A DNA stretch of 64,000 nucleotides from Paraglaciecola marina (GTDB lineage Bacteria; Pseudomonadota; Gammaproteobacteria; Enterobacterales; Alteromonadaceae): the NCBI RefSeq assembly GCF_004360155.1, contig NZ_SAIS01000004.1:273046-337045 (forward strand). The letters are read 5' to 3'. Below the pieces are notes generated by a model. The model was not told where the DNA came from. It worked only from the letters and a program-made list of their open reading frames with translations, and searched no databases. A program made the translations under genes and the position numbers. Numbering within the stretch: position 1 is the stretch's first letter; the number at the start of each line of letters is the position of its first letter. This document shows, in pieces, positions 2,828 through 64,000 of the stretch.

Positions 2828-3253
2828 CTATTCATAAATACCGGGCTTCAATATTTGCATGAGTTTCTCAGGGTTTTCCACTGGAACAAATCCAAACTTT
2901 GAGTACAAACCGTGAGCATCGCTTGTTGCCAACATGAACCTACGTAGATCTTGTAGGTCAGGGTGGCACGAAACGGCTTCCATAAGTAATTTACTAATTC
3001 CTTTACCACGATATTTTTCAATGACAAACACATCACCGAGATAAGCAAATGTTGCCTTATCTGTAATTGCTCTAGCAAAGCCTACTTGGTTTTTGCTTTG
3101 ATCGTAAGCTCCAAATACTAACGAATTTTCGATGGATTTCTGCAAGGTATGAAAAGGAATATTCTTAGCCCAATATGATTTGGCTAGAAAAGAGTGAATT
3201 AACTCTATGTCTAGGTCTTTGTGGTTTGAGCTTACAGTGATTTCCTGAACCAT
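2828..3253 (-). CDS. GNAT family N-acetyltransferase
   Basis: A 141-aa acetyl-CoA-dependent acyltransferase fold. The central VGFARAITD and YLGDVFVIEKYRGKGISKLLM contain the strand-beta4/Q/R-x-x-G-x-G/A signature (YRGKGI) that binds the acetyl-CoA pyrophosphate, and the C-terminal GLYSKFGFVPV is the usual YxxxGF end. Substrate unknown. Its first 40 or so codons and upstream DNA are duplicated at 7223-7399. It lies in a run of accessory genes on the minus strand. Confidence 0.85.
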   Translation of the reverse strand: MVQEITVSSNHKDLDIELIHSFLAKSYWAKNIPFHTLQKSIENSLVFGAYDQSKNQVGFARAITDKATFAYLGDVFVIEKYRGKGISKLLMEAVSCHPDLQDLRRFMLATSDAHGLYSKFGFVPVENPEKLMQILKPGIYE

Positions 3254-49915: not shown

Positions 49916-50617
49916 TTACTTTGCAAACCCTTTCAACAAAAAACCAACAGACATAGGTAAAGTGAAAAACGGTGCCAACATCATAAAAGCTAGAATCGGC
50001 CCTACTTTTTGCGGAGGCGGCTCAAACGAACTAATCACCCCGTATCCAAACAGATAAGGCAACAATATATACACCAAGGTAAAGGCACTAAACATCCAGA
50101 CAGACGGGTTTGATTTTTTCAAGAACAAGTAAGCCGATACTGCAAATATCATTGCCCAAAGTATGGATGGGATATGCATAAACATGTCAACCTCTAGGCG
50201 AGATACACCACTTTCGTTCCATGCAATTCCCCAATATTCGCTATTAAACAATATGTAGTGCACTTCACCCGCCATCAAAAGCTGCCACAAATGCTCTGAA
50301 GGCATATGCATGTTTGACAACCAACCAACAAATAAAGCAATGGTTGGCAACGCCAGTACACATAAAAGAATGCTGAGTGTTTTTACAAAACCTGTTGTTC
50401 TAATCATCGCTTTTTGCCCATCCCAAATCGCCAATGTGGTTTGTCTTAGTAGCCAGTTGTTTGCATCTTGATTAGTCTGCTGGCGCTCTGTGTATTCTTC
50501 CTCCATATCGCCAATTAGCTCGTCACGATAGGTTGGATTAGCTAATCGTGACAACAGCCAAGTCGCCAACTTGGGCATAGTCGAGTGCTGTTTTTGAGAT
50601 GAATGAGTATTAAGCAT
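49916..50617 (-). CDS. Membrane protein with permease-prefix domain, partner of PadR
   Basis: About 233 aa. The N-terminal PKLATWLLSRLANPTYRDEL and IGDMEEEYTERQQ match the permease-prefix domain found in front of MacB-like transporters, here followed by four helices but no ABC-permease core. Met 50617 is chosen because GGAGGTGAAC precedes it; the start overlaps the end of padR, so the two are coupled. Likely controlled by the PadR protein. Confidence 0.72.
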   Translation of the reverse strand: MLNTHSSQKQHSTMPKLATWLLSRLANPTYRDELIGDMEEEYTERQQTNQDANNWLLRQTTLAIWDGQKAMIRTTGFVKTLSILLCVLALPTIALFVGWLSNMHMPSEHLWQLLMAGEVHYILFNSEYWGIAWNESGVSRLEVDMFMHIPSILWAMIFAVSAYLFLKKSNPSVWMFSAFTLVYILLPYLFGYGVISSFEPPPQKVGPILAFMMLAPFFTLPMSVGFLLKGFAK

Positions 50618-50945
50618 GTTCACCTCCCACTGTAAGTACAACACCTTGCCACATGGTATCCATGGTTTGCTTAGCGTGTTTAAGTGCGGCTTTGCCTTCA
50701 GCTGTTACCGAAAAAAAGCGCTTAGGTCTTCCGCCACGTTGCGCGGTGGCCTCTCCGAGTTTAGACACGACCAAACCTTTTTTCTCCATTCGCTCTAGTG
50801 TTGAGTACAAAGCCCCTAAAGCAACATCTCTGTTTATTTCGCGCTGTAAAAGCTGACGAATAGCCGCACCATATGCATTAGTTTCTAAGCGCAACAATGC
50901 GAGCAAAACAACTTGTTCAAATTCACCTAACGTTTTCTGATTCAT
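50610..50945 (-). CDS. PadR family transcriptional regulator
   Basis: 111 aa. A winged helix with LGEFEQVVLLALLRLETNAYG, LGALYSTLERMEKKGLV, RPKRFFSVTAEGKAAL and a C-terminal dimerisation helix. Typical of PadR-s1 regulators paired with a membrane protein. Two palindromic sites upstream fit autoregulation. Confidence 0.9.
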   Translation of the reverse strand: MNQKTLGEFEQVVLLALLRLETNAYGAAIRQLLQREINRDVALGALYSTLERMEKKGLVVSKLGEATAQRGGRPKRFFSVTAEGKAALKHAKQTMDTMWQGVVLTVGGEHA

Positions 50946-50964
50946 TACACCCTCCTGATATTTC

Positions 50965-51017
50965 CTACAATGTAGTTTTTAAAAATAGGCTTTGCAAAAC
51001 AAATAACTACATTGTAG
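50965..51017 (-). promoter_or_regulatory. Two palindromic operators upstream of padR
   Basis: CTACAATGTAG (50965-50975) and CTACATTGTAG (51007-51017) are the same dyad read in opposite directions, centres 42 bp apart (four helical turns). They lie 20 and 62 bp upstream of the padR start and are the obvious PadR binding sites. Confidence 0.72.
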
Positions 51018-51086
51018 TAATTTTAATATATACCAAGGTATGCAGGGCAATACGGGGTAAAATAGAACTTGATAGACACGGCTCAC

Positions 51087-52108
51087 TTAAAAAAGAGTGC
51101 CACCAGCCAGTTTTTTCAGTGCGAAATTTCCTCTTTCAGCAACGGCGATAGAAGGATCGTTTGAAAATTTCTTGGCTAAGCCTAATGACTCATTATCACT
51201 GAGATTATCCAGTTCTTTAATAAGCATTTCAGCAGCCACCCTTCTTACCAAAGAGGAGCGGTCATTAGCTGCCAAAAGTAGGGTCGGTAAACGCTGAATT
51301 TTTATTGTTAATATGCGGGTGGCAACCAATGCCTTTCTACGACCTTCTCCGTACCTGCGGTCTGTCCATTCCCATTCTCTGCCTGCAAACCAACTACTTT
51401 TCCCCTCAAACAGACTGCGATAAGCTTTAGCTCTCAAAGAAGGTTGAATTGCTTTTACAGCAATCACCTCCAAGCTACTATCTAAGAAGCAAGTACGACC
51501 AATCTCAGACATCACTAAGACTAAAGGTCCAGAGCTTGAATAAAGTAACTTCATTTTAAGGTGATTAGTTATTTCTCTATTCGATAAAGTATTGAGTAAC
51601 GTATTTCTATTTGAATCGTCAATTCTTTTCCAAGAAGACCAGTGACTTAGAGTGAAAAAAATCGCATCCGCAACATAAGAAGGTTCAGAGTTAACAAGCA
51701 CTTTGGAAAGAATGCCTTGCGCAGCTTGGCTTGCCTTACTTGGGGCACCCAATCATTAAGCCTTCTAAGCACAAGCGCTAAAAAGAACCTATTTAGCACT
51801 GTTTGGCCAATAGCTCTTAGTGCTTTTTCTCGTCTGAATCCATCCCAGCTACACAAATCAAGCAGCGTAACTGGTGGTGTATTTTTTTGCCAAAAGGCCC
51901 ATTTATTCGAATGACTAGACGCTAAAGCATTATCATATTCATCTCGAATATACCTTTCCCAGTATTCTAGCTTTGTTAAAGGTAATTCAGAGGTAGCCGT
52001 AGTAACTGCAGATAAATTAGGCTTTACTTTATTTGATGGTCTATTCGTTTCTACGAATTCTTTTAGTGCGACAGATACCTTGAGCTCTAGCTCTGTTTTT
52101 TCAGTCAC
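51087..52108 (-). pseudogene. HEAT-repeat-like gene split by a 5-bp tandem duplication
   Basis: The upstream frame (52108 to about 51725) reads to LRRLNDWVPQVRQA and then loses frame; the downstream frame resumes with AAQGILSKVLVNSEP and continues to 51087 (VRRVAAEMLIKELD, IAVAERGNFALKKL). At 51724-51733 the plus strand has GCTTG twice. Removing one copy restores VRQAAQGIL and a 338-residue product with alpha-helical HEAT-like repeats. Last gene after rlaP on the same strand. A disrupted gene, a phase-variable state or a sequencing error are all possible. Confidence 0.75.
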
Positions 52109-52159
52109 AACTCAATCCTTAATATCTTTAATAAGTTATCCGGCCTAGCTGACCAGCTT

Positions 52160-52984
52160 TTAGTACCTTTCTAATACAGCTTTAAATAACATGTTCAGAG
52201 ATTCAAAATCTGCTTCCCTCCCTTTCATTTTCGCAGAGTAACTCTCATGCCTTGCTAATTCTGATTCGATAAACTCATTTATTACAGGTACTGCTGGTGC
52301 ATATTCTTTTTCTAAACTTGCTCTTTTGCGAAGCAGCAAATCTGTTATGGCATCATCTAAAGGCTTATTGTCAGATACTAGTTTGCGTAACACTTCAAAC
52401 TCGATTGGTGCTGGCTTGTTGAATTTTTCAAGCCACATGATAGCCAGTAATGGCCTCAGTACATAAAAGTACTTTTTCAGAGGTACCAAGTCTTTTTTCA
52501 AGTATTCACGAAAGTTACCTTTTGCCATATGCAGGTAGTGATAAATCCCTTTTTGAGAAGATGCAATTGAAGGCATTAATTCACGGGCTTTATTGGCAAA
52601 GTGACCATCATCTGCATACACAATGGGTGACTGTAACCACTCGATAAAAGCTGGGTTGGATTTCCAAAATAGTTTTAACGCTTTTCGGATATCCCAGCCG
52701 TTAATATCAATTTCATCCACTATCGGATATTCAATCACATCTCGCTTATCTTCAACATCAACGGTTAAATACCAATCCTTAGGGTGGACGTATATAAATC
52801 TGACGTCATAATCGCTATTAGGTGATTCAAAACCCCATGCACGGCTACCAGACTCTATGGCGTAGAGTACCTTTACTCCATGCTCTGATTCTGCAGCTTT
52901 GATTCGTCGTAAGATCTCAACTCGCACCTCTAGGGAGATTGGGCTGGCTAATTCCACACTCCCTTTCTTTTGTTTAGTTTCCAT
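52160..52984 (-). CDS. RlaP-type predicted nucleotidyltransferase of the RNA repair operon
   Basis: 274 aa. Polymerase-beta superfamily motif: YAIESGSRAWGFESPNSDYDVRFIYVH with GSRAWG and the metal-binding SDYDVRF, then VDEIDINGWDIRKALKLFWK. This matches the RlaP family (RNA-ligase-associated pol-beta). 3 bp after rtcA, so the same operon. It may modify RNA ends before ligation; not biochemically settled as far as I know. Confidence 0.88.
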   Translation of the reverse strand: METKQKKGSVELASPISLEVRVEILRRIKAAESEHGVKVLYAIESGSRAWGFESPNSDYDVRFIYVHPKDWYLTVDVEDKRDVIEYPIVDEIDINGWDIRKALKLFWKSNPAFIEWLQSPIVYADDGHFANKARELMPSIASSQKGIYHYLHMAKGNFREYLKKDLVPLKKYFYVLRPLLAIMWLEKFNKPAPIEFEVLRKLVSDNKPLDDAITDLLLRKRASLEKEYAPAVPVINEFIESELARHESYSAKMKGREADFESLNMLFKAVLERY

Positions 52985-52987
52985 TTT

Positions 52988-54025
52988 TTACTTCTCCAAA
53001 TATACTTTCCAAAGTACATCACTTAATTGCTTGGTTTGTATCTCAACTCCCAATACCAGCTTAATCACTTCGATATTGGTTGTAGTATGTAAACTAGGTT
53101 TAGTGGTCGTAAAGCTTCCCACACCTGCTAGTGCAATGGGCACTAATAATTGATCTGCTAGATGCTCCTCAACGGCTGCCTCAGCATGAATAAATTTATT
53201 TACTCGGCCAGCTGCGCGTTTTGCGACTCGTTCTGCAGAAACACCTAGCTCACCCACAAGCTCAAAAATATTACGATGAGTGTCAGTTTTAATGCCTAAC
53301 TGCAAACTGTTACCTGGGCCGGTTGTTACTACACTCTGAACCTCGCTCAGTGCATCAGGCCAATTCAGTATCTTTTTCGCCGTGTCCACTTCTCGCTGCC
53401 CTATATTTTCTGGTAACAAACTCACCAGGGCCTGTACTGAACAGTTCTGGCTCAACTTAGCAAAATTGCAGCCAGCTTCCGTTAGATAAATCGGCGCCAG
53501 CTTATTAGTAGGTTCTATTTTTATCTGCCATTTTCCTCCACCAGCAGGATAAAAACCTAAACTAAAAATATTTACCACTCCATTCACACCCATACTTTTT
53601 AATAATGGTAAAAACGAGTGTTCAAAAAAACTTAATGAAGGTGACATACCGTTATGGGTTCCACCTTCAAACGTGATAGTTGAATTACCTTTTGCTAAAG
53701 CTAATACAGGAAAAATAGTTTGGCACACCAAGACCGTACTACCCGCGGTACCAATGGCATAATGATAATCCCCAGATTTTACCTGCCCAGGTGAGAACAA
53801 AATTCTAGTAGATCCAAGCTCTACTCCTTCAGTAGTTGCGCCACAAATTTCTTGCGCGGCTAACACACAAGTTAAGTGTTGACGCAACAACCCTGATTTT
53901 TTACGGCCCGCCCTAATATTAATCAATTCAACGCATTGTTGGGTTAGAATTGACAGTGTCAGTGCCGTCCTTAACACCTGACCACCTCCTTCTCCTTGAG
54001 AGCCATCTATCGTTAGATACGACAT
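52988..54025 (-). CDS. rtcA: RNA 3'-terminal phosphate cyclase
   Basis: 345 aa. IDGSQGEGGGQVLRTAL near the start, IRAGRKKSGLLRQHL, GTAGSTVLV, FYPAGGGKW and the nucleotidylated His in KFIHAEAAVEEHLADQL. Converts 3'-phosphate to 2',3'-cyclic phosphate. Between rtcB and rlaP on the minus strand. Confidence 0.95.
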   Translation of the reverse strand: MSYLTIDGSQGEGGGQVLRTALTLSILTQQCVELINIRAGRKKSGLLRQHLTCVLAAQEICGATTEGVELGSTRILFSPGQVKSGDYHYAIGTAGSTVLVCQTIFPVLALAKGNSTITFEGGTHNGMSPSLSFFEHSFLPLLKSMGVNGVVNIFSLGFYPAGGGKWQIKIEPTNKLAPIYLTEAGCNFAKLSQNCSVQALVSLLPENIGQREVDTAKKILNWPDALSEVQSVVTTGPGNSLQLGIKTDTHRNIFELVGELGVSAERVAKRAAGRVNKFIHAEAAVEEHLADQLLVPIALAGVGSFTTTKPSLHTTTNIEVIKLVLGVEIQTKQLSDVLWKVYLEK

Positions 54026-54053
54026 TATTTTTCCTTTACTACTATTTATGCTT

Positions 54054-55277
54054 TTACCCTTTCACACATACAATTTGTTTGAGGGTGTACACCACTTCCA
54101 CCAGATCTTTCTGCGCTTCCATCACTTTTTCAATGTCCTTATAGGCATGGGGTATTTCATCAATAACTGACGCATCTTTTCGACACTCAACGCCTTGAGT
54201 CGCTGCAATTTGGTCATCAACGTTATACACTTTTTTAGCTTTCGTTCTCGACATCACTCGCCCCGCTCCATGGCTACAACTATTGAAGCTTTCTGGGTTA
54301 CCTAACCCCCTCACAATAAAAGAACGTGCCCCCATGCTGCCAGGAATAATCCCCATCTCACCTTTTTCAGCTCGCACTGCACCTTTTCGTGTGACATAAC
54401 AATCCTTACCAAAATGACGCTCACGAGAGATATAATTATGGTGACAATTTACTGCTAACTCAGCAGTCGAAAACTCCACAGGCAACTCCTTTCTTAATGC
54501 AGCTATTGCATTAAACATCATAATTTCTCGGTTTTTAGCCGCAAAGTCTTGTGCCCATTCAACGGCTTCAACATAATCATCAAAATACTCACTACCTTCT
54601 TCTAGGTAAGCCAAGTTCGTATCTGGCAAGTTAATTTGGTGACGCTGCATTTCTTTTTTTGCAAGCTCGATAAAATAGGTACCTATTCGGTTTCCTACTC
54701 CACGACTTCCCGAATGTAACATGATCCAAACTGCATCATTCTCATCTAAGCAAAGCTCTAGAAAATGATTCCCCGTACCCATAGTACCCAAGTGATTTAC
54801 GTGGTTGCTTTTTCTTATGGCTGGATGCTTCTCACAAATTCGTTCGAATCTTAGTTGCAATTTCAACCATTCTTTAGACACCACTTCAGGGATATTATGC
54901 CAAGCGCCTCGATCTCTCTGTCCACGACTACTGGTTCTACCGTGGGGTACAGCTGCTTCGAAAGCATGTCGAATAGCTGATAGGTTATCTGGCAGTTGAC
55001 TCGCTGTTAGAGTAGTTTTAGTAGCTACCATGCCACATCCTATATCGACACCTACAGCGGCTGGGATCACCGCGTCAACTGACGGAATGACGCTACCAAT
55101 TGTTGCCCCTTTGCCTAGATGTACGTCTGGCATTACCGCTATATGCGAGTGAACTAAAGGCATGGACGCAATATTATTTAGTTGTAACTGTGCTTGCTCC
55201 TCAAACGGCACTCCTTTAGTCCACGCTTTTATTGTTGCTCTACCTTCATTTTCAATAACGTTATAATTTCTACACAT
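54054..55277 (-). CDS. rtcB: RtcB RNA ligase of the RtcA-linked group
   Basis: 407 aa. VDIGCGMVATKT, GTMGTGNHFLEL, LHSGSRGVGN, CHHNYISRE, RKGAVRAEKGEMGIIPGSMG and SHGAGRVMSR (guanylylated His) are all present, so it is a complete ligase. Clearly different from the PrfH-linked RtcB at 47.6 kb in N-terminus and loop sequences. AAAGG precedes the ATG. Part of the sigma-54 operon. Confidence 0.95.
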   Translation of the reverse strand: MCRNYNVIENEGRATIKAWTKGVPFEEQAQLQLNNIASMPLVHSHIAVMPDVHLGKGATIGSVIPSVDAVIPAAVGVDIGCGMVATKTTLTASQLPDNLSAIRHAFEAAVPHGRTSSRGQRDRGAWHNIPEVVSKEWLKLQLRFERICEKHPAIRKSNHVNHLGTMGTGNHFLELCLDENDAVWIMLHSGSRGVGNRIGTYFIELAKKEMQRHQINLPDTNLAYLEEGSEYFDDYVEAVEWAQDFAAKNREIMMFNAIAALRKELPVEFSTAELAVNCHHNYISRERHFGKDCYVTRKGAVRAEKGEMGIIPGSMGARSFIVRGLGNPESFNSCSHGAGRVMSRTKAKKVYNVDDQIAATQGVECRKDASVIDEIPHAYKDIEKVMEAQKDLVEVVYTLKQIVCVKG

Positions 55278-55353
55278 TATCTTTCCCTTTATAATTTTTA
55301 CTTGTTCGATTAGCGGACTACAGCCTATTCTGTAGCCCTTTCAGAATCTTTAA

Positions 55354-56508
55354 CTAGGCTATTTTCACAACACCATTCATCAAACCATCTAAACCACCAT
55401 AAACCGTTAAGCTATCAATTCTCTCAGCCACTTTTTCAAGGGCTTCAAGTTCTTTCAATCGCATTAACGTGGGATTGTTTTCCATCACTTTTGCAGTGTT
55501 ATGAAGACTCCTAGTGGCTGAGGTTTCTTCACGTCTTTTAATCACATTTGCTTCAGCGGCTTTTTGCGCTTCTACCACTTGATTCAGTATCGCTTTCATT
55601 TCACCTGGCAATATGATGTCTTTTACACCAACACTTAACAGTGAGATACCAATGTCTGACAATCTGTCTTTCACTAGCTCTTTTACGGTTTCGTTGACGT
55701 ATAACTTGTCTAATAGAATGTCATCCAACGACTTTGTGCCTACCGCTTCTCTTAAAGCCAATTGCAATGTTTTGTAAACAAAGTCTTCAACTTTATCGAC
55801 ACTACGCGCAGCTAATTCGGCATCATTAACTTTGATACTGGCACTAAGGTTGATACGAAGACTAACTCTGTCTTTACTCAAAATTTCTTGCCCAGAAATT
55901 TCAAGTAACTGCGTTCTACAATCAAATGACTTTAGTTCCACTGTATGGTTGAACTGCCAGAATCCATGTTGACCAGGTTCCAACCTTTTGGTTAATTGAC
56001 CATTCACATACAACAGACCAATGTGGTTTTTTGCTACATTTAGGTCTGCAACAGGCTTAACCGCAACTGTACGTTCACTTCTAATTAATCGTGAAGAAGT
56101 ATTCGCTCCCGCACGATTGATTAGGAAATATGTTTTATCATCAATTGCAATGTCTTCATCAATCGACATTTTTTCCAATCTAATCTCGCCCGCATCTTTC
56201 CAAAGGTACAAATGCTCACTCGGCGCAACTATGCCTCTAAGTAAATCGTTGACATACAGTAAGCCGACTTCCGTACTATCTAATTTCCAGTGAGAAATAT
56301 GTTTACTTAATTGCTCGTTATTTCGATACAGACGTTCGGCATTTTTCTCTGAAAAATACAGCGAATTAATATCAAAAGTGGCAAAATCCAATTCGTTTTT
56401 AATATCCCAAACTTTGTATTTTCCAGGCATTAATACCTTTTCTAATTCTTGATTTTTGAATACCAGAACTCTTTGATTTTCTGTTACTAACTTAGTTTTT
56501 CTAAACAT
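55354..56508 (-). CDS. Slipin (SPFH/band 7 protein) with three N-terminal beta modules
   Basis: About 384 aa. Met 56508 has AAGGAA upstream and fits homologues. Three similar short modules (RVLVFKNQELEKVLMPGKY at 13-31, GLLYVNDLLRGIVAPSEH at 82-99, GLLYVNGQLTKRLEPGQH at 164-181) precede the SPFH domain (LRINLSASIKVNDAELAARS...LREAVGTKSLDDILLDK...LSVGVKDIILPGEMK) and a coiled-coil tail. No N-terminal membrane helix is visible. Slipins are regular members of RtcR-controlled repair operons. Confidence 0.88.
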   Translation of the reverse strand: MFRKTKLVTENQRVLVFKNQELEKVLMPGKYKVWDIKNELDFATFDINSLYFSEKNAERLYRNNEQLSKHISHWKLDSTEVGLLYVNDLLRGIVAPSEHLYLWKDAGEIRLEKMSIDEDIAIDDKTYFLINRAGANTSSRLIRSERTVAVKPVADLNVAKNHIGLLYVNGQLTKRLEPGQHGFWQFNHTVELKSFDCRTQLLEISGQEILSKDRVSLRINLSASIKVNDAELAARSVDKVEDFVYKTLQLALREAVGTKSLDDILLDKLYVNETVKELVKDRLSDIGISLLSVGVKDIILPGEMKAILNQVVEAQKAAEANVIKRREETSATRSLHNTAKVMENNPTLMRLKELEALEKVAERIDSLTVYGGLDGLMNGVVKIA

Positions 56509-56690
56509 TATTAAATTCCTTATTTTCACCTCGTTAGAGGTGGTGTTGGTAAGGGCTATGCACTTATTTGGTAAAGGCTTCAAAATCTAAAGTTGTGGGG
56601 AGCATCCAGCTTGCCAAAACTTGTTCTCAATTAGCGTTTATCAAACATTGGTACCAACGACTTACTAACATTTCATTACATACATTTTTG

Positions 56691-56763
56691 TATAAAGGGT
56701 GGGATTTGAACCCACAACAATCGAATTAAACGTTCGATGCTCTACCAATTGAGCTACCCGTAT
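56691..56763 (-). tRNA. tRNA-like element C (Lys-like, abnormal)
   Basis: 73 nt folding as a cloverleaf: D arm GCTC-N8-GAGC, anticodon arm TCGAA-CGTTTAA-TTCGA, variable TTGTT, T arm GTGGG-TTCAAAT-CCCAC. The anticodon would be TTT, but position 33 is G instead of the invariant T; the acceptor stem has a mismatch, no CCA is encoded, and its 5' end overlaps element B by 3 nt. A functional tRNA is unlikely; a tRNA mimic or decayed gene is more plausible. Confidence 0.7.
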
Positions 56764-56830
56764 TTAAGGAAGGATTCGAACCTTCGCCAACAGCACTAAA
56801 CTGTTGCTCTATCCTCTGAGCTACTTAAAC
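56761..56830 (-). tRNA. tRNA-like element B (abnormal anticodon arm)
   Basis: 70 nt. Acceptor GTTTAAG/CTTAAAT, D arm GCTC-N8-GAGC, T arm GAAGG-TTCGAAT-CCTTC. After A26 the anticodon arm is only 15 nt (ACAGT-TTAGT-GCTGT), leaving a 5-nt loop unless the stem is shortened to 4 bp. The variable region is 4 nt. No CCA. Its 5' third is nearly identical to element A. Confidence 0.7.
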
Positions 56831-56832
56831 GG

Positions 56833-56902
56833 TTATTAAGATGGGATTCGAACCCATGTCCGGCAAAATTTCTTTGCTGCTCTACCTCTGAGCTACTTAA
56901 TA
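56833..56902 (-). tRNA. tRNA-like element A (5-nt anticodon loop)
   Basis: 70 nt. Perfect acceptor TATTAAG/CTTAATA, D arm GCTC-AGAGGTA-GAGC, T arm ATGGG-TTCGAAT-CCCAT, variable CGGAC. The anticodon arm GCAAA-GAAAT-TTTGC has a perfect 5-bp stem but a loop of five instead of seven. The discriminator A is followed by CCG and then element B after 2 nt. First element after the sigma-54 promoter. Confidence 0.72.
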
Positions 56903-56991
56903 TTTGTTTGATTAGGTATACACAGTCACATTGTTCAGCGCACCAGAGTGACTTTTTGAATCACTTCTTATTAATCAGACACCTAGGTATT

Positions 56992-57007
56992 TACAAGTCA
57001 TGTGCCA
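56992..57007 (-). promoter_or_regulatory. Sigma-54 promoter of the RNA repair operon
   Basis: On the minus strand TGGCAC-ATGAC-TTGTA (GG and TG of the -24/-12 elements in register with TGGCAC-N5-TTGCA, one mismatch). It points towards the tRNA-like elements and slipin-rtcB-rtcA-rlaP and lies 150 bp from the divergent rtcR start, leaving room for RtcR binding sites between. Confidence 0.82.
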
Positions 57008-57158
57008 CTTTAAAACCAACCCCAAAATAAAACCTAAACCACTGTTATTAAACAACAAAATTGAAAACTTTCATTTCATGTATACTTTTCGATGAAACTA
57101 AAAATCAAATTTGATAGCATTATAGATATTAAAACTATCCATTTGGATATATATAAAA

Positions 57159-58748
57159 ATGAAAAATACTGTTGTGGTAAGTTTAATTGGAACCCAATTG
57201 GACTATGTAGGTAAAAGGGTAGATAGGTGGGCTAAGTGGCGACCCAATGTCAGTTTGTGCAGCCAACAAGATCTAATTGTCAATGAATTTCATATGCTCC
57301 ATGACAATCATAGTAGCCGGCTAGCGAACAACGTTGCTGTGGATATTTCGTCTATTTCTCCTGAAACTAAGATGATCCTGCACACCACAAATTTCAAAGA
57401 CCCATGGGACTTTGAAGAGGTTTACGCCAAGCTGTTTGATTGGTGCCAACAACAAGAGTTTGATACCGACAAAAATGATTACTTATTTCACATAACAACG
57501 GGTACCCATGTTGTACAAATATGTAGTTATTTGCTTACTGAAAGCCGCCATTTCCCAGGGCGCCTTATTCAGACTTCCCCAGACCACAACAATAAAAATA
57601 AGTCGATTGGACGAATACAAATCATTGATTTAGATTTATCTAAATATGATCAGTTGGCAACACGGTTTGATATTGAACATCAAGAAGGCAAAGACTTCTT
57701 AAAAGGTGGAATTCAAACTAAAAATAAAGCCTTTAATAAGCTAATAACTCAGATAGAGAAAGTTGCGATACGGTCACAAGATCCCATGTTACTTACTGGA
57801 CCTACAGGTGCAGGTAAAAGCCAACTAGCAACACGTATATTTCAATTAAAGAAGAAACGTTCGATGTTAAAAGGCGCTTTAGTTTCTGTGAACTGCGCAA
57901 CCTTAAAAGGTGAAAATGCTATGGCTGCGCTGTTTGGGCATACTAAAGGAGCCTTTACCGGAGCATTAAAATCTAGGGATGGCTTTTTGCTTACCGCTCA
58001 TAATGGTGTCTTATTCTTAGATGAAGTTGGAGAGCTGGGTTTAGAGGAACAAGCCATGTTGTTGCATGCCATTGAAAACAAAAAATTTCACCCTGTAGGC
58101 AGCGACGCAACAGTTTCAAGTGACTTTCAATTAATCGCTGGCACCAATCGAGATTTGAAACAAGAGATAAAAAAAGGAGCTTTTCGTGAAGACTTACTTG
58201 CCCGTATCAACCTTTGGACATATGAACTACCCGCATTAAAAAATCGAAAAGAAGATATACCTGTCAACCTTGAGTACGAACTTGATTTATTTTCCCAGAA
58301 GTCAGGCCATCGCGTGCAATTTAACAAGGAGGCAAAGAATATATTTATCGATTTTGCTACCTCAAATGAGGCCTTGTGGTCTGGAAATTTTCGAGACCTA
58401 AGCTCGGCAATTACTCGGCTATGTACATTAGCTGACTCATCAAGGGTTACAGTAGACGATGTAAAAGATGAAATCGAAAGGTTGAAGTACTCGTGGAGGC
58501 CAACTCTTGAACCATCAGGGGATAATCTACAAAATTACCTACCAAAAGAGCAACTCGACAAACTCGATAGCTTTGATAGTAATCAACTTGGTTATGTAAT
58601 AGATATCTGTCAACGGCATAACACTATGGCATCTGCTGGTAGGGAGTTATTTGATGTCAGCCGCACATTAAAATCTCAGCCTAATGATTCTAGTCGATTG
58701 CAGAAATACCTAAATAAATATGGACTGAAGTGGAGTGATATTTCATAA
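57159..58748 (+). CDS. rtcR: RtcR, CARF-domain sigma-54 activator of RNA repair
   Basis: 529 aa. Residues 1-180 form the RtcR-type CARF sensor (VVVSLIGTQLDYVGKRVDRW; YLFHITTGTHVVQI). AAA+ core: Walker A GPTGAGKS (214-221), GAFTGA (263-268, contact with sigma-54) and LFLDEV (284-289). A C-terminal helix-turn-helix follows (AGRELFDVSRTLKS). Senses an RNA-damage ligand and activates the divergent operon at its -24/-12 promoter. Confidence 0.95.
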   Translation: MKNTVVVSLIGTQLDYVGKRVDRWAKWRPNVSLCSQQDLIVNEFHMLHDNHSSRLANNVAVDISSISPETKMILHTTNFKDPWDFEEVYAKLFDWCQQQEFDTDKNDYLFHITTGTHVVQICSYLLTESRHFPGRLIQTSPDHNNKNKSIGRIQIIDLDLSKYDQLATRFDIEHQEGKDFLKGGIQTKNKAFNKLITQIEKVAIRSQDPMLLTGPTGAGKSQLATRIFQLKKKRSMLKGALVSVNCATLKGENAMAALFGHTKGAFTGALKSRDGFLLTAHNGVLFLDEVGELGLEEQAMLLHAIENKKFHPVGSDATVSSDFQLIAGTNRDLKQEIKKGAFREDLLARINLWTYELPALKNRKEDIPVNLEYELDLFSQKSGHRVQFNKEAKNIFIDFATSNEALWSGNFRDLSSAITRLCTLADSSRVTVDDVKDEIERLKYSWRPTLEPSGDNLQNYLPKEQLDKLDSFDSNQLGYVIDICQRHNTMASAGRELFDVSRTLKSQPNDSSRLQKYLNKYGLKWSDIS

Positions 58749-58863
58749 CAAAATCGACTTTAAACCGACAATTTTTTACTGTGTAGATAAAACAGCAAAA
58801 GCAAAGTGGTTGTGCTCTGTGGTATCCTTTGCCTGTTCTAGAGTTTACAAGTTGAGATAAAAA

Positions 58864-61296
58864 ATGTGGTTGCATAAATTGTTATCTGCAGTGATAGCGG
58901 TTCCTGTTAAATGGCTTGTGAAAGCAAACAGTACACCAACAGATATCGAAGGTGAGTTAGGTATAGATAAGTCTAAGCCTATTGTTTATTTACTGCGTAC
59001 CCATTCAATTACTGATCTCCTTGCATTAAAAATGTCTGCAAAAACTTTAGGCTTACCTAAACCAACAGACACGATTGAAGTCGCAGGGGAAAGCCATGCT
59101 TCTTGTTTGTTTTTACAAAAGCCTAGGTCAGTACTCAATCGTAAAAAAAGTAATACCGATATTCTTGAAGACGCCAGCACCTTATTTAAATTACACAGAG
59201 AAAACCCAGAATTAGACATTCAAATAGTCCCTGTATCTATTCTGTGGGGCCGTGCGCCCGACAGAACACTATCAAGTTGGTCTGATATTATTGCCAATCA
59301 GGTATCACCTAGTTGGCTGCGTAAATTCTTTATTGTGCTGTTTTTAGGGCGCGATAACTTTGTTTGTTACAGCAAAGCAGTGTCATCTCGTTCCATGGTG
59401 CAACTCAAAGGCGACGACCATACCATTGCCCATAAGTTAATTAGAGTCGCCGGTACTCACTTTCATCGCAGGCAACAAACCCTTACTGGTCCAAATATTT
59501 TAGAAAGGCACGAATTATATAACGGCGTGTTAGGCTCTGAATCTGTACTTAAAGCCATAGATGACCGCGCCAAAACAAAAAATATTAGCCAGCAAAAAGC
59601 CAAGCTAGAAGCCAAAAAGTATGTAGATGAAATTGCCGCAGATTACCGACCAGGGTTAATACGCCTTAGCGAAAGGATCTTAACCAAGATATGGAACAAA
59701 ATTTACAACGGCATAGAAGTTAATCACGCCGAAAAAGTCCGAAACCTAGCACAAAATGGCCACGAAATTATCTATGTTCCTTGCCATCGTAGCCATATGG
59801 ATTATCTGTTACTCACCTATGTTATTTACCATCAAGGATTAGTGACTCCAAGAATAGCTGCAGGGATTAATCTGAACTTTCCACCTGTTGGCGGCATTTT
59901 GCGTAAAGCTGGAGCATTTTATTTACGCCGCAGTTTTGCTGGCAATAAACTATACACAGCAGTGTTTCGTGAATACCTTGAGTTGCTTTTCAAAAAAGGT
60001 AATTCAGTGAAATATTTTCCTGAAGGTGGTCGCAGTAGAACAGGGCGTTTATTACCCCCTAAAACGGGCATGCTAGCCATGACCATGCAAGCCGTGGCAA
60101 AAGGTATAAACCGCCCAGTGAGCATTGTGCCTGTTTACATTGGCTACGAGCACGTAATGGAAGTATCGAGTTACGTTAAAGAGCTCCATGGAAAAAGTAA
60201 GCAGAAAGAATCTTTTTTCCAAATATTCTCAGCCATTAAAAAACTTAAAAATTATGGAACTGGTTTTTTAAACTTTGGCGAACCCATCAACCTTACAAAC
60301 TTTTTAGATCAACAAGCCCCAGATTGGCGTGATGACCAACAAGCCAATATCGACAAAAAGCCTCAGTGGTTAACACCTGTAGTGAACAGCCTTGCCACAG
60401 AGGTGATGAGCAGAATTAACCAAGCGGCGGCGGTAAATGGCATGGCACTTTGCTCGTTATGTTTGTTGTCATCGAATAAACATGCCATGTCGAGGATAGA
60501 GTTAGAAACAGCAATGGATCATTTTATTGCGCTACTCAAAGACTCTCCATACAGCGAAATGGTAACAATACCAGAAACAAGCGGAGCCGAGTTACTAGCC
60601 AATACCTTAAAACTCAACAAGCTCACAGTGACCGAAGACAGCTTTGGCGAAATCGTTTCTCTAAAAGAAAGCACTGCCGTGGCCCAAACCTATTACAGAA
60701 ATAACATTCTACATTTGTTCGCTTTACCCGGACTAATAGCTGCCATAGTGTTCGCACACGACGAGCTAGACAAATCACAAATAGTTAAACTAACCGGAAA
60801 CCTCTACCCATTGCTTAAGCAAGAGCTTTTCATGTACATGGATCATCAAGAGGCACAAGGATACATAGAGTCACTTATCGATCAGATGTTGAGCATGGGC
60901 TTGTTAGTTGACGAAAATGGAAAAATTCAGCACGCCACACCTTCAAGCCATGCCTTTTACTCTGTGTATTTACTTAATCGCAGCATTCAAGAAACCCTGC
61001 AACGTTACGCACTTGTACTCACTTTGCTGTGCAAAGAAGAGCAAATAAACCGTAAAGAGCTAGAAAAACAAAGTACACAGTTTGCAGCTCGGTTGTCAGC
61101 TTTGAACGGCATTAACTCTCCTGAGTTTTTTGACAAAAAAGTACTCGCGACCTTTATTAACGCGTTAAAAGAAAACGGCCTAGTAGAAGCAGATGAACAA
61201 GGGCAATTGAGCTATGCCAAACAAAGTGACCTACTTAAAAATGAGGTGACTGCGCTAATAGAGCCAGAAATCGCGCTGCGACTACAGCAAATATAA
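58864..61296 (+). CDS. plsB: Glycerol-3-phosphate acyltransferase PlsB
   Basis: 810 aa, the usual length. The acyltransferase HX4D motif is in CHRSHMDYLLL (His308-Asp313), followed by GGILRKAGAFYLRR, FPEGGRSRTGRLLPPKTGML and SIVPVYIGYEHV. First step of phospholipid synthesis at the inner membrane. Preceded by GAG at a 9-base distance. Its usual neighbour lexA is 16 kb away here. Confidence 0.96.
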   Translation: MWLHKLLSAVIAVPVKWLVKANSTPTDIEGELGIDKSKPIVYLLRTHSITDLLALKMSAKTLGLPKPTDTIEVAGESHASCLFLQKPRSVLNRKKSNTDILEDASTLFKLHRENPELDIQIVPVSILWGRAPDRTLSSWSDIIANQVSPSWLRKFFIVLFLGRDNFVCYSKAVSSRSMVQLKGDDHTIAHKLIRVAGTHFHRRQQTLTGPNILERHELYNGVLGSESVLKAIDDRAKTKNISQQKAKLEAKKYVDEIAADYRPGLIRLSERILTKIWNKIYNGIEVNHAEKVRNLAQNGHEIIYVPCHRSHMDYLLLTYVIYHQGLVTPRIAAGINLNFPPVGGILRKAGAFYLRRSFAGNKLYTAVFREYLELLFKKGNSVKYFPEGGRSRTGRLLPPKTGMLAMTMQAVAKGINRPVSIVPVYIGYEHVMEVSSYVKELHGKSKQKESFFQIFSAIKKLKNYGTGFLNFGEPINLTNFLDQQAPDWRDDQQANIDKKPQWLTPVVNSLATEVMSRINQAAAVNGMALCSLCLLSSNKHAMSRIELETAMDHFIALLKDSPYSEMVTIPETSGAELLANTLKLNKLTVTEDSFGEIVSLKESTAVAQTYYRNNILHLFALPGLIAAIVFAHDELDKSQIVKLTGNLYPLLKQELFMYMDHQEAQGYIESLIDQMLSMGLLVDENGKIQHATPSSHAFYSVYLLNRSIQETLQRYALVLTLLCKEEQINRKELEKQSTQFAARLSALNGINSPEFFDKKVLATFINALKENGLVEADEQGQLSYAKQSDLLKNEVTALIEPEIALRLQQI

Positions 61297-61423
61297 AGCG
61301 TAAAAAAGTAACTCTAGGAGTGAGATAAAGAATACAAAGCCAACACTATAACTTTGTATTTTTTGACTATGATTATTAGCGTCAATATTTACATTGGCGC
61401 TCAACGACCAAAAGGATTTCACC

Positions 61424-62443
61424 ATGTCTAAACTTATTTTATCACTGGATGGCGGCGGTATTCGCGGTGCTGCCACCACACAATTTTTAAGCCAAGTAGA
61501 AGCTCAACTACAAGCCAAGTATCAAAAGTCGGTACGTGACTGTGTTGATTTTTATGCCGGCACCAGCACAGGTAGCATCATTGCTTTGGCGTTAGCCACC
61601 ACAGATATGTCTATGGATGACATCAATAGTTTATATAATGTCACCAATGCCAAAAAGATATTTACCGACAACAAAGGCGTGTTCGAGCTAGATGGCATTA
61701 ACGCCCCCAAGTACGAAGCAAGGGGCAAGTCTTCTACCTTAAAAGACAAGCTAGGCGCAGCAACCTTGGGTGATGTGCCTGAAGGAAAACACGTACTTGC
61801 AGTGACTTATGGAGTTGAAAAACGTCGCCCCTTCGTGATTAAGTCCACTAAACCTGAATATCAAAAACTACTTTCTTACCAAGTGGCAGACTCATCGAGT
61901 GCAGCACCTACCTATTTCCCCACAAAGGAGTTGTTACTGCCCCCTGATAACGAAGAACACTGGTTAATTGATGGCGGTGTGGTAGCCAACAACCCCACTA
62001 TGTGCGCGTATGCAGAGGCAAGCCGTTTATGGCCCACACTTGAAAAACGAGTATTAACCATAGGCACAGGTACCCACACTCGCAAAATTAATGGCCCAGA
62101 CTCACGCAAATGGGGCGCAGTACAATGGATGTTAAAGGGCCAAATTATAGATTTATTGTCAGACGAAAAAGTCGTCGCCTACCAAGCCATTACTATTACC
62201 CAACCAGGTAAATATATTCGAGTAAATGCAGAAATGCGTACCCAGCCCGGCCTCCTCAAAGCCCCTGACGACGCCATGGACGATATTAGTAAAACCAATA
62301 TAAAAAGATTAAAAGCTTTAGGGGACTTTTGGTTTAAACGCTATGGCGATGCAACGGTAGAACTACTAAACGATAGTTATGATGGCCCGTCTTTGGATAG
62401 GATTGATCCAACAACAGGCGAGCCGATTGTTTATCAGCCTTAA
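61424..62443 (+). CDS. Patatin-like phospholipase
   Basis: About 339 aa. DGGGIRGAATTQFL (oxyanion), GTSTGSIIAL (Ser in GxSxG) and DGGVVANNPT (catalytic Asp) show a complete Ser-Asp dyad. Start ATG 61424 has AAAGGA upstream. The layout resembles the bacterial patatin effectors as well as ordinary lipases; no cyclase or other defence partner is adjacent, so a metabolic lipase is the simpler reading. Confidence 0.88.
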   Translation: MSKLILSLDGGGIRGAATTQFLSQVEAQLQAKYQKSVRDCVDFYAGTSTGSIIALALATTDMSMDDINSLYNVTNAKKIFTDNKGVFELDGINAPKYEARGKSSTLKDKLGAATLGDVPEGKHVLAVTYGVEKRRPFVIKSTKPEYQKLLSYQVADSSSAAPTYFPTKELLLPPDNEEHWLIDGGVVANNPTMCAYAEASRLWPTLEKRVLTIGTGTHTRKINGPDSRKWGAVQWMLKGQIIDLLSDEKVVAYQAITITQPGKYIRVNAEMRTQPGLLKAPDDAMDDISKTNIKRLKALGDFWFKRYGDATVELLNDSYDGPSLDRIDPTTGEPIVYQP

Positions 62444-62625
62444 TTGTTAAATTAGGGCTGCTATGAGCAACTTGTAAACAATGGGATTATTGCTTTGCCC
62501 AAAAAACGGACGAAGCAATTGATTGTGATTTAATCCATCGCCTGACAGCTAGCATCAAAGAGATTAATCTTTATTTTCTCTGAAAACTCTACAGATAGAC
62601 AAGGAATAACTAGGGCCCCTTTATT

Positions 62626-62682
62626 CAGCAACGCAGTGAAGGTCCAGCCCGATTGAGGGCGAGCGTTGAACGCTTGTTAGGC
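62626..62682 (-). repeat. attC-like site a (degenerate right end)
   Basis: Read on the minus strand: GCCTAAC (62682-62676, matching RYYYAAC), then AAGCGTTCAACG..., an inner GCCC/GGGC hairpin, and GCGTTGCTG with GTTGCTG as a degenerate R'. 57 bp, directly after the stop of the adjacent gene (4 bp), as expected for an integron cassette. The rest of the gap 62444-62625 holds nothing I recognise. Confidence 0.55.
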
Positions 62683-62686
62683 ACGT

Positions 62687-63265
62687 TTACGCTATTCGTT
62701 CGATTCTACATTTTTGACAAAGTGGATATGACGCCACTATAGGCTGTATTAGTTTATCCATTGTTTCAAAGGATTTACCGTATAAATAAAATGCGGTTTC
62801 TGATTGTCCCTGCCAATAGCTTGCAACACTTCCATGACCTTCCGTAAGTCTGTCCAATTCGTTATAGACAAAGTTTGAATCGCTTTCCTCGTAGATTTTG
62901 TCTGGTAAATCTGTTCCATTAAGATAGATCGCAAGTCCCTCCAGCTCACCTATGGGGATTTCTTCTTCTGTTTTTTCAACCACTATTTTTGAGCCTTTCG
63001 GCGTTCCTATTTTTTCTAAAGAAAGTCGAATCTGTTCTATGGTTGATGAATTTGAGTTTTTTACCTCAATTTCTATGTCGCACGATTCGATCTCTCCAGA
63101 TTGAGACTGTAATGTGCCACCACCTGATACTTCCCCTAGTTTATTTTCCCTAAGCAACTTTTCAAGAGCCTCTTCATATAGTTCCCCTCGGTGCATTGGT
63201 TGAAGCCTTGCATTGAGGTTTACTACAATGTACTGAGGTTCTTTTTTCTTTAAAAAACTAAACAT
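62687..63265 (-). CDS. Hypothetical cassette protein
   Basis: 192 aa, soluble, no signal peptide. FLKKKEPQYIVVNLNARLQP, MHRGELYEEALEKLL, GEVSGGGTLQ, GEIESCDIEIEV and TPKGSKIVV mark a conserved hypothetical family found in many proteobacteria; function unknown. The stop is 4 bp from attC-like site a, and attC-like site b lies just upstream of the start. Confidence 0.78.
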   Translation of the reverse strand: MFSFLKKKEPQYIVVNLNARLQPMHRGELYEEALEKLLRENKLGEVSGGGTLQSQSGEIESCDIEIEVKNSNSSTIEQIRLSLEKIGTPKGSKIVVEKTEEEIPIGELEGLAIYLNGTDLPDKIYEESDSNFVYNELDRLTEGHGSVASYWQGQSETAFYLYGKSFETMDKLIQPIVASYPLCQKCRIERIA

Positions 63266-63284
63266 GTTTAAAATTCCTTTTAGT

Positions 63285-63385
63285 GCCTAACGCTTTGAAT
63301 ATGGGGCAAATATGAGCGCTTTGGCCGAAGGCCAGCGAGTATTTGTCCCCGTGAGTTTACGAACAACATAATTCATTTGTTAGTG
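63285..63385 (-). repeat. attC-like site b
   Basis: 101 bp bounded on the minus strand by CACTAAC (63385-63379) and GTTAGGC (63291-63285, matching GTTRRRY). The interior folds back: GGGG-CAAATA pairs with TATTTG-CCCC, and a central CGCTGGCC-TTC-GGCCAAAGCG hairpin caps it. It shares 20 identical bases (63321-63340) with site c (63702-63721). It contains the stop codon of the neighbouring cassette gene. Confidence 0.82.
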
Positions 63386-63612
63386 TTCTTAACCTTCAAT
63401 AGGAACTTCATAGCTCCGTAGTATACGAATGGTGATGCTACGTAAGCCAACAAAATCCCATCGAATATAAAAAACCAAAATAATAAAACAGATTTATCTT
63501 TTCCGTTACAAAGGTCACGAGATAAAACTTCAAAGCAAACACCATTTGGGGACGCTAATATATAAATCAGCACTGCAAAGAGGCCAAAAGCTATTAATAC
63601 TCTTTTAAGCAT
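63373..63612 (-). CDS. Small two-helix membrane protein (cassette gene)
   Basis: 79 aa: helix 1 VLIAFGLFAVLIYILASP, a short loop with two Cys (GVCFEVLSRDLCNG), helix 2 SVLLFWFFIFDGILLAYVAS, and a basic end KFLLKVKNTNK. The stop codon lies inside the attC-like site, which is typical of gene cassettes. No family recognised. Confidence 0.7.
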   Translation of the reverse strand: MLKRVLIAFGLFAVLIYILASPNGVCFEVLSRDLCNGKDKSVLLFWFFIFDGILLAYVASPFVYYGAMKFLLKVKNTNK

Positions 63613-63664
63613 CTTACCTTTAAGCTTTTTACTGGCCTTAACTCTCAGTTCAATTCTCCAAGAA

Positions 63665-63749
63665 CACTAACGCTTAAGCTAAGCAGAAAACACGACGCAT
63701 TTTGGCCGAAGGCCAGCGAGTGGTTTTCTGATTAAGCTTTTTGTTAGCA
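63665..63749 (-). repeat. attC-like site c
   Basis: 85 bp from GTTAGCA (plus 63743-63749) to CACTAAC (63665-63671). Long imperfect arms (AACGCTTAAGCT.AAGCAGAAAAC / GTTTTCTG.TTAAGCTTTTTGTT) close on the same GGCCGAAGGCC centre as site b. Confidence 0.78.
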
Positions 63750-64000
63750 GCCGCATGGCGTGCTGCTGTTTGAATTGGTTGATGAACTAACAAACTGTGA
63801 CTTCCATTATTGAATTGAGTAGATGCATATCCTTGCCTTTTGGTTTGTCAGCATTTGATGATTTATATTGCCAGAACTTGTTGTTTACGTGAACTACTTT
63901 TACCGACCGTAATGCGCTAAAAAACTAACCGCTTTGCACACCACTTTTAGGTAACCAACTAAAAATTTTACTAAGACACGCATGGCAATAAAATACCCAA
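63750..64000. other. Window end, probably part of the next cassette
   Basis: On the minus strand a 28-codon frame (MRVLVKFLVGYLKVV...) stops at TAA and a separate frame (RSVKVVHVNNKFWQYKSS, then NADKPKGKDM...) runs towards site c with no start codon. I see no intact gene; the segment may hold a frameshifted cassette gene cut by the window edge. Confidence 0.4.

Follow-up and report, generated by a model that had tools for sequence, protein, structure and literature searches.

A conserved leader RNA with tRNA-like modules is linked to a slipin family in bacterial RNA-repair operons

RESULTS

The window carries an RtcR-controlled RNA-repair operon

The stretch of DNA analyzed here, referred to as the window, comprises 64,000 nucleotides of the Paraglaciecola marina genome (contig NZ_SAIS01000004.1). 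Its minus strand holds an RNA-repair operon consisting, in order of transcription, of a slipin gene (384 amino acids, 55354..56508; Pfam Band_7, AlphaFold model, and PDB comparisons), rtcB for an RNA ligase (54054..55277; PF01139), rtcA for an RNA 3'-phosphate cyclase (52988..54025; PF01137), and rlaP of an RNA-repair nucleotidyltransferase family (52160..52984; PF10127). The rtcR gene, encoding a CARF-AAA+ sigma-54 activator (57159..58748; PF06956 and PF00158), lies divergently on the plus strand. A sigma-54-type promoter, TGGCACATGACTTGT (56993..57007, minus strand), follows the pattern TGGCAC-N5-TTG; its GG stands 24 nt from the first base of the RNA described below, which puts the predicted +1 on or close to the point where the 5' domain of that RNA begins. 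Ahead of the slipin gene, on the same strand, a short hairpin (CACCTC-TAAC-GAGGTG, 56527..56542) precedes the ribosome binding site AAGGAA (56516..56521). The preliminary description of this DNA had placed a sigma-54 promoter before a set of cloverleaves and slipin-rtcB-rtcA-rlaP behind them, and the pattern match and the Pfam calls for RtcR (CARF and AAA+ domains), RtcB, and RtcA agree with this arrangement, identifying the locus as an RtcR-controlled RNA-repair operon.

Behind rlaP lie two overlapping minus-strand reading frames (51087-52108) that have no Pfam match. The 21 other genomes searched from this genus contain only weaker sigma-54 activators and no RtcR match like that of the window; the operon is patchy and may be mobile.

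Three cloverleaves lack features of decoding tRNAs

Between the promoter and the slipin gene, three tandem cloverleaves are transcribed in the order A (56833..56902), B (56761..56830), and C (56691..56763), all on the minus strand. Their Rfam tRNA scores of 56.3, 58.2, and 59.5 bits, respectively, are above the gathering threshold of 29 and compare with 50-78 bits for the other tRNAs of the genome, while ARAGORN recognizes the same three elements with slightly different bounds (56831-56902, 56760-56830, and 56690-56763). The two programs thus bear out the tandem arrangement that had been proposed, and the Rfam coordinates of B and C (56761-56830 and 56691-56763) likewise reproduce the proposed overlap of 3 nt.

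None of the three elements encodes CCA, as had been stated: the four bases past the acceptor strand are ACCG, ACGG, and ACAA in A, B, and C, compared with a CCA end in all 47 tRNAs fetched from the same genome. The claim that their anticodon loops are defective holds for element A, which has the 5-nt loop GAAAT on the stem GCAAA/TTTGC, and for element C, whose 7-nt loop CGTTTAA has G33. Element B can be read either with the 5-nt loop TTAGT on ACAGT/GCTGT or with the 7-nt loop TTTAGTG on AACAG/CTGTT, the latter having U33 and the anticodon UAG, and its loop therefore appears ambiguous. In the control, the loop parser skipped 9 of the 47 tRNAs and read 38 class I tRNAs, of which 37 have a loop of 7 nt that always includes U33; the lone exception, a tRNA-Cys, reflects a register slip of the parser. 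Compared with a canonical decoding tRNA, the elements reach the cloverleaf score, fail in the encoded CCA (0 of 3), and fail in the combination of a 7-nt loop with U33 (A with 5 nt, C with G33), with B ambiguous in the last respect. Decoding by the three elements consequently seems unlikely. Since tRNA finders label such elements as Lys, Leu, Phe, stop, or undetermined tRNAs, they constitute an annotation hazard.

The cloverleaves are modules of a larger structured RNA

The three cloverleaves are not a self-contained set, a point that the preliminary description missed: comparison with related loci indicates that A, B, and C are modules of one longer, conserved multidomain leader RNA, which begins at the predicted +1 and ends some 35 nt ahead of the slipin start codon. 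Leaders examined among the 16 related rtcR loci, and among some of a further 80, have conserved sequence on both flanks of the elements. The general architecture is a three-way junction at the 5' end, one to three tRNA-like modules, and, in close relatives, a long hairpin at the 3' end.

In the window, the 5' domain (56905..56982, minus strand) is predicted to consist of P1 (56972-56981/56905-56914), P2 (56945-56968), and P3/P4 (56915-56944). We described this domain by two covariance models, R1, built from 14 close loci, and R2, built from 14 diverse matches; the window scores 89.5 bits with R1, whose training set includes it, and 71.1 bits with R2, whose training set does not. In alignment A4, comprising 14 loci picked to fit a 100 kb limit and fitted to the model, hence leaning towards it, 20 of the 26 pairs have changes on both sides and 87.8% of cells pair, with a covariation score of 0.620 that drops to 0.139 or less once the partner strand is slid. 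A free RNAalifold prediction on A4 gives the same shape (24 pairs, 19 of them compensatory). From the unfitted MAFFT alignment A2 (14 of the 15 listed 5' domains, L005 being left out), P2-P4 are recovered (16 pairs, 6 compensatory) and P1 is not.

The 3' domain (56545..56669, minus strand) is predicted to form a long irregular hairpin closed by GTTAGTAAG/CTTACCAAC. RNAalifold on the unfitted alignment A6, which covers 14 close loci only (of the 15 listed 3' regions, L003 is left out), returns one long hairpin with 43 pairs, 34 of them compensatory; the covariation score is 0.558 compared with at most 0.132 upon sliding, for a structure derived from the same alignment. Rfam 15 yields no family for the 5' or 3' domain, and none other than tRNA above threshold anywhere in the RNA, in the window (50000-64000, searched at E <= 1), 16 rtcR loci, or 12 related loci (both searched at gathering). 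The sub-threshold extras in the window, YrlA and a plastid family, both overlap the tRNA-like parts.

The position of the promoter is shared as well. Among 24 rtcR-linked leaders examined, 22 have a sigma-54 site of the TGGCAC type 21-34 nt before P1, at 24 nt in 11 of them; the two leaders that do not match this pattern are L062 and L110. Given this spacing, the RNA is expected to begin at or near the predicted transcription start. Taken together, covariation and the two-way linkage to slipin genes presented below settle, on comparative grounds, the existence at this locus of a conserved structured RNA that contains tRNA-like modules.

The modules retain the tRNA elbow and release the anticodon loop

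To compare modules across the family, we parsed the leaders of the window and 43 other loci, 44 in total (L041, L043, and L076 were not parsed). Forty leaders yielded 57 modules complete with D, anticodon, and T arms; no full module came from L052, L060, L067, or L123. T stems pair in 285/285 cells and D stems in 226/228. Most of this was demanded by the parser itself, which accepted only D loops containing GG, T loops containing TTC, and T stems with 4 or more of their 5 pairs, such that the conservation of the elbow is partly by construction. By eye, modules fall into three positional classes that recur across genera (L002, L004, L033, and the window).

The anticodon arm behaves differently in its stem and in its loop. 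After removal of L036, a near-copy of L035, 51 of the 55 remaining elements can form all 5 bp of the anticodon stem, compared with a mean of 7.4 and a maximum of 17 in shuffles, even though these elements have 36 distinct anticodon stems and 51 distinct loops. Loop lengths among the 57 modules are 3 nt (1 module), 4 nt (2), 5 nt (14), 6 nt (10), 7 nt (23), 8 nt (3), 9 nt (2), 17 nt (1), and 22 nt (1). A 7-nt loop with U33 occurs in 11 of 57 modules (11 of the 23 seven-nt loops), and in at most 17/55 if any permissible register is allowed, compared with 37/38 in the genome control; CCA is encoded in 7 of 57 modules compared with 47/47 control tRNAs. The acceptor stem is fully paired in the standard register in 13/57 modules.

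Compensation that preserves the anticodon stem is unlike a pseudogene, and the loss of loop length, U33, and CCA is unlike a tRNA in use. These comparisons point to a tRNA elbow retained for recognition, with the modules as tRNA mimics. What counts against a mimic is that about a fifth of the elements keep a plausible decoding loop, 11 of the 57 modules looking able to decode, and that seven encode CCA. The earlier suggestion of selection for a tRNA mimic rather than for decoding or decay is thus strengthened (elbow kept, anticodon loop freed, stems compensated, CCA rare), and the D and T arms of the slipin loci do not display the random decay that had been named as evidence against it.

These data bear on two other explanations. 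The first is that the operon has captured ordinary or decaying tRNA genes. Cloverleaf scores of 56-60 bits are those of real tRNAs, the modules of L106, L128, and L129 look fully tRNA-like, and some slipin-less rtcR loci carry ordinary-looking tRNAs. Capture would nevertheless leave compensated anticodon stems beside drifting loops, CCA in only 7/57 modules, positional classes shared across genera, and co-conserved flanking domains to be explained, and we consider it barely credible. The second explanation is that the modules are free decoys, which compete with real tRNAs for nucleases of the PrrC, VapC, or colicin type and whose hypervariable loops record an arms race. It would account for 51 distinct loops among 55 elements on conserved D and T arms, and Hughes et al. 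(2020, PMC7790460) suggest, where they discuss YrlA, that this RNA is a competitive inhibitor of anticodon nucleases. Loops of 3-22 nt, however, fit a lost constraint better than mimicry of particular anticodons, and free decoys would leave the two-way slipin linkage and the conserved 5' and 3' domains without a reason. Such decoys are therefore improbable.

Two further features of the modules were observed. The anticodon loops of 22 nt (L008, about 1150-1240) and 17 nt (L062, about 3120-3205) are flanked by intact D and T arms, and, by eye, each could hold an extra hairpin. Many distant leaders also have a second T-arm element after the full module, formed by a hairpin and a T arm and apparently D-arm-less (e.g., L050, L059, L069, L106, L122, and L129).

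The RNA follows slipin rather than RtcR

A search of 147 genomes (that of the window and its relatives) for rtcR yielded 16 RtcR loci, two of which (L011 and L016) show only part of the region; 11 of these 16 loci carry tRNA-like elements on their divergent side. To these we added the best 80 of at least 575 confirmed rtcR loci. The 5' domain was then searched in 92 sources, a set that omits L031 and L037 (on the contigs of L002 and L009), L001 (for which the window stands), L011, and L049. At E < 1e-5, R1 matched 24 times, in each case ahead of slipin, with the next match (E 0.12) also at a slipin locus, and R2 gave 27 matches at E <= 1.4e-8, again all ahead of slipin. With filters off, R1 reached 22-27 bits in L059, L069, L066, L050, L013, and L014, in each case as the top match of the locus and just ahead of a tRNA-like element and slipin; it reached 13.9 bits in L106 and missed L110. 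Overall, the 5' domain (R1 or R2, E < 1e-5) is present in 31 of 38 slipin-bearing sources compared with 0 of 54 slipin-less ones. Among slipin-bearing loci, the domain is weak in L052, L062, and L110 and was not found by R1 or R2 in L065, L067, L073, and L076. Where the operon order is altered, the RNA stays with slipin, lying between rtcA and slipin in L050, L066, L069, and L106.

Homologous rtcR loci without the elements had been named as potential counterevidence to the mimic reading. They exist among slipin-less loci, with a mixed outcome: three (L009, L010, and L012) have rtcB directly next to rtcR and lack the elements, and seven (L048, L071, L078, L079, L097, L099, and L104) carry ordinary-looking tRNA genes, from which the 5' domain is absent by both R1 and R2. 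A tRNA near rtcR is therefore not by itself specific to slipin. Four rtcR loci from Alphaproteobacteria have a tRNA-Pro(UGG) of ordinary appearance, with CCA, between rtcR and the operon (L071:4677-4754, L078:4660-4735, L097:4660-4735, and L104:4662-4740), and in three of them it abuts or overlaps the start of a Ro60 gene; it is perhaps a stress-induced spare tRNA.

We also made a blind R2 search of 369 gammaproteobacterial genomes, under strict filters and with 12 candidates scored per genome. Eleven genomes matched, with one match each, and only one of them (G022) belongs to the training set. In all 11, slipin lies directly downstream on the same strand. Four matches were seen beside rtcR (that of the window itself, G022, G378, and G467), two precede slipin-rtcB with RtcR out of view, and the remaining five (L123, L125, L126, L128, and L129) are RNA-slipin pairs with no RtcR, RtcB, or RtcA in view, the views being 11-19 kb and limited by contig ends in L126, L128, and L129. 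Conversely, a slipin of the window type occurs in 21 of the 369 genomes, all at E <= 1e-74. R2 scores the RNA in 18 of these (E <= 2.3e-5); it is weak in L175 (17.1 bits, E 0.0036), and in L167 and L171 it was recognized by eye, the 5' domain lying beyond the end of the fetched stretch. By these comparisons, the RNA follows slipin, not RtcR.

Consequently, the earlier idea that the target of the RNA is RtcB or RtcR is not supported in the form proposed, since the RNA tracks slipin and five of the 11 blind matches have none of RtcR, RtcB, and RtcA in view. A related explanation would make the modules a substrate or amplifier: once nicked, they would provide 2',3'-cyclic-phosphate ends that activate RtcR, or they would serve as RtcB substrates. 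Damaged tRNAs are described as regulating and activating RtcR in two accounts (Hughes et al. 2020, PMC7790460; PMC9879122), contacts between RtcAB and RtcR are described by Kotta-Loizou et al. (2022, PMC9650030), and Aklujkar et al. (2012, PMC3543383) propose, in their passage on a mutant tRNA discussed below, a substrate or guide role. Against it stand the RNA-slipin pairs without RtcR or RtcB in view and the rtcR-rtcB loci without slipin (L009, L010, and L012), which lack the RNA. Because solitary RNA-slipin loci exist, a role as RtcR ligand is weakened as a general function, and we regard this explanation as very improbable.

At loci without RtcR, we looked for an attenuator ahead of the RNA and rejected it, since scans of L127 and L129 (loops of 3-8 nt) were not above shuffles. 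By eye, a C/G-rich hairpin followed by a T run is present upstream of the RNA in L123, L127, and L129.

The leader position also fits control in cis

The same-strand adjacency of RNA and slipin fits a cis-acting leader as well as it fits a ribonucleoprotein partner. As a cis-acting sensor, the folded RNA would control the translation or transcript stability of slipin (and of rtcBA downstream), the signal being tRNA-specific enzymes that cut or bind the modules. Such a leader would be adjacent to slipin and on its strand, as in 11 of 11 blind matches, and would start at or near the predicted +1 and end shortly before the ribosome binding site, as observed. Moreover, a single-sequence fold of the window leader leaves the ribosome binding site mostly paired (unpaired probability 0.05-0.23).

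Several features argue the other way. The conserved 3' hairpin excludes the ribosome binding site, whose partner in the fold is the element B acceptor strand. This element is absent by eye in L003, L006, L034, L035, and L060, so that the pairing is not family-wide. Among close loci, the last module and the slipin start are as little as 159 nt apart (L074) and as much as 325 nt apart (L003), and L167 has another reading frame between the RNA and slipin. We consider control in cis rather unlikely. An anti-Shine-Dalgarno model was rejected as the main reading because several relatives are without element B, and it is kept as part of the cis alternative. As to the pairing itself, the slipin ribosome binding site (56516-56521) can pair with about 56762-56770, and a similar complementarity is seen by eye in other loci that have module B and is missing from loci that lack it.

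Related slipins and tRNA-like elements occur beyond Gammaproteobacteria

The phylum of the Phycisphaerales locus L065 (planctomycetes) has a related slipin in 31 of 199 genomes. In all 20 planctomycete loci listed, out of these 31 slipin genomes, a T-arm element or tRNA lies 364-1007 nt upstream of slipin; in L198, this is only a distant, ordinary-looking tRNA-Leu, and several of the slipins lie inside arrays of up to 13 tRNAs, where an upstream tRNA is expected anyway. The 5' domain was not recognized at the planctomycete loci. In the genome of L062 and in four genomes from other phyla, R2 found nothing convincing, the best match (E 0.026) being off the slipin locus as far as checked, and a slipin search over 198 genomes of the phylum of L110 returned the query genome only. 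Outside Gammaproteobacteria, the data thus support tRNA-like parts together with slipin, and not homology of the whole RNA. Slipin genes within tRNA arrays were seen in L183, L186, L194, L196, L197, L200, and L201, as well as at the gammaproteobacterial slipin-rtcB locus L170.

The slipin is an SPFH protein with repeats closer to SPFH1 modules than to MVP

To our knowledge, bacterial slipins have no settled function. The window protein belongs to the slipin/SPFH family (PF01145, 105 bits), and its residues 185-361 match stomatin by profile (E 3e-33); no Pfam RNA-binding domain was found in it. The AlphaFold model has N-terminal SPFH1-like beta repeats, an SPFH/Band_7 domain, and a long C-terminal helix. 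In structure comparisons, the whole model is similar to MVP, the major vault protein, which together with vault RNA forms the vault particle. This similarity did not carry over to the N-terminal repeats alone, which gave no significant match, with MVP absent among the 50 Foldseek matches listed, and vault homology was not retained as a reading. The repeats resemble SPFH1 modules more than MVP, and a cage or RNA binding by the slipin would be hypothetical.

Slipin and Ro60 occupy the same place in different operons

A known arrangement resembles the one described here. In rsr-yrlBA-rtcBA operons, YrlA, a tRNA-mimic RNA, lies beside the gene for the RNA-binding protein Ro60/Rsr within an RtcR/sigma-54 repair operon, that is, in the same slot as the window RNA. 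Among 96 rtcR loci (the 16 and the best 80 of at least 575, with two duplicates, and with a flank of 1.5 kb in 16 of the 96 loci and of as much as 5 kb in the others), slipin is present in 39, Ro60/TROVE is present in 22, 35 have neither, and none has both (Fisher p 2e-6, uncorrected for kinship); the mutual exclusion may be partly phylogenetic. The identity of Ro60 was checked by Pfam vWA_Ro60 on two examples. YrlA is above the Rfam gathering threshold in 5/13 Ro60 loci compared with 0/12 slipin loci. In the genome of the window, a TROVE profile, which caught only 1 of its 14 controls, gave no match, and neither did a planctomycete Ro60 used as query in a search without a positive control.

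The window RNA differs from YrlA in its normal tRNA order, its one to three copies, its unrelated 5' and 3' domains, and slipin as the partner gene. Its two matches to YrlA (RF02553), at 29.7 and 29.3 bits, are below the gathering threshold of 69, and we therefore rejected its membership among Y RNAs. These matches (56731-56793 and 56798-56871) each span the T arm of one module and the D arm of the next; one may guess that YrlA arose where two units of a tandem tRNA-like array meet.

DISCUSSION

We know of no RNA partner on record for RtcR operons without Ro60, one isolated tRNA apart. In the literature searched, this tRNA, reported by Aklujkar et al. (2012, PMC3543383), is the only direct precedent, and no account of the leader-RNA family or of its general link to slipin was found. 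As presented in the passage on this gene, Pcar_R0061 of Pelobacter carbinolicus is a mutant tRNA-Asn situated between rtcR and a stomatin-like gene followed by rtcA and rtcB; it is a non-decoding cloverleaf with a changed position 33, a buried CCA, and reciprocal mutations (PMC3543383). Compared by description, it shares with the window an altered cloverleaf placed from rtcR to a stomatin-like gene together with rtcA and rtcB, and it differs in the gene order after slipin. That passage concerns a single case in one genome and describes neither a family nor flanking domains nor a slipin link outside rtc loci (PMC3543383). Pcar_R0061 is very probably a member of the leader-RNA family described here.

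Since the RNA adjoins a slipin gene wherever the blind search found it, we tentatively favor the reading that the leader is a tRNA mimic bound by slipin, its partner. At rtcR loci, damaged tRNA ends, known to activate RtcR in Salmonella, would activate it here as well, and sigma-54 transcription would start at P1. The leader would persist as one RNA, since its overlapping and often poorly paired acceptor stems appear unsuited to excision as tRNAs. Slipin oligomers, made beside the RNA, would capture it as they are produced, and the displayed tRNA elbows would attract enzymes that bind tRNA to the slipin assembly or sequester them there, with anticodon nucleases and modification or repair enzymes as candidates. 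Meanwhile, RtcAB would reseal the cut tRNAs. Slipin with its leader RNA would resemble the Ro60-YrlA particle of other rtcR operons by analogy and not by homology.

A related association has been described in Anabaena, where, according to the sections on the trcR mutant, TrcR is a repressor connected with translation stress and its deletion raises the tRNA array of the trn operon, rtcB, and the slipin alr0740 (PMC10272220). As here, a tRNA array, RtcB, and slipin go together, all three responding to the removal of one repressor; unlike here, these sections place them at separate loci, with tRNAs of the ordinary type, and report no tRNA-like leader (PMC10272220). It is conceivable, if doubtful, that a third tRNA-mimic ribonucleoprotein exists beside Ro60-Y RNA and vaults, namely, an SPFH (slipin) assembly on a large RNA that shows one to three tRNA elbows, occurs alongside RNA repair and backup-tRNA arrays in several phyla, and guards translation when tRNAs are cut.

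The findings suggest that two unrelated pairs of a protein and a tRNA-mimic RNA occupy the same place in RNA-repair operons. Being tied in both directions to one slipin family, the RNA becomes a candidate ligand for slipin, which makes the question of what slipins bind a testable one.
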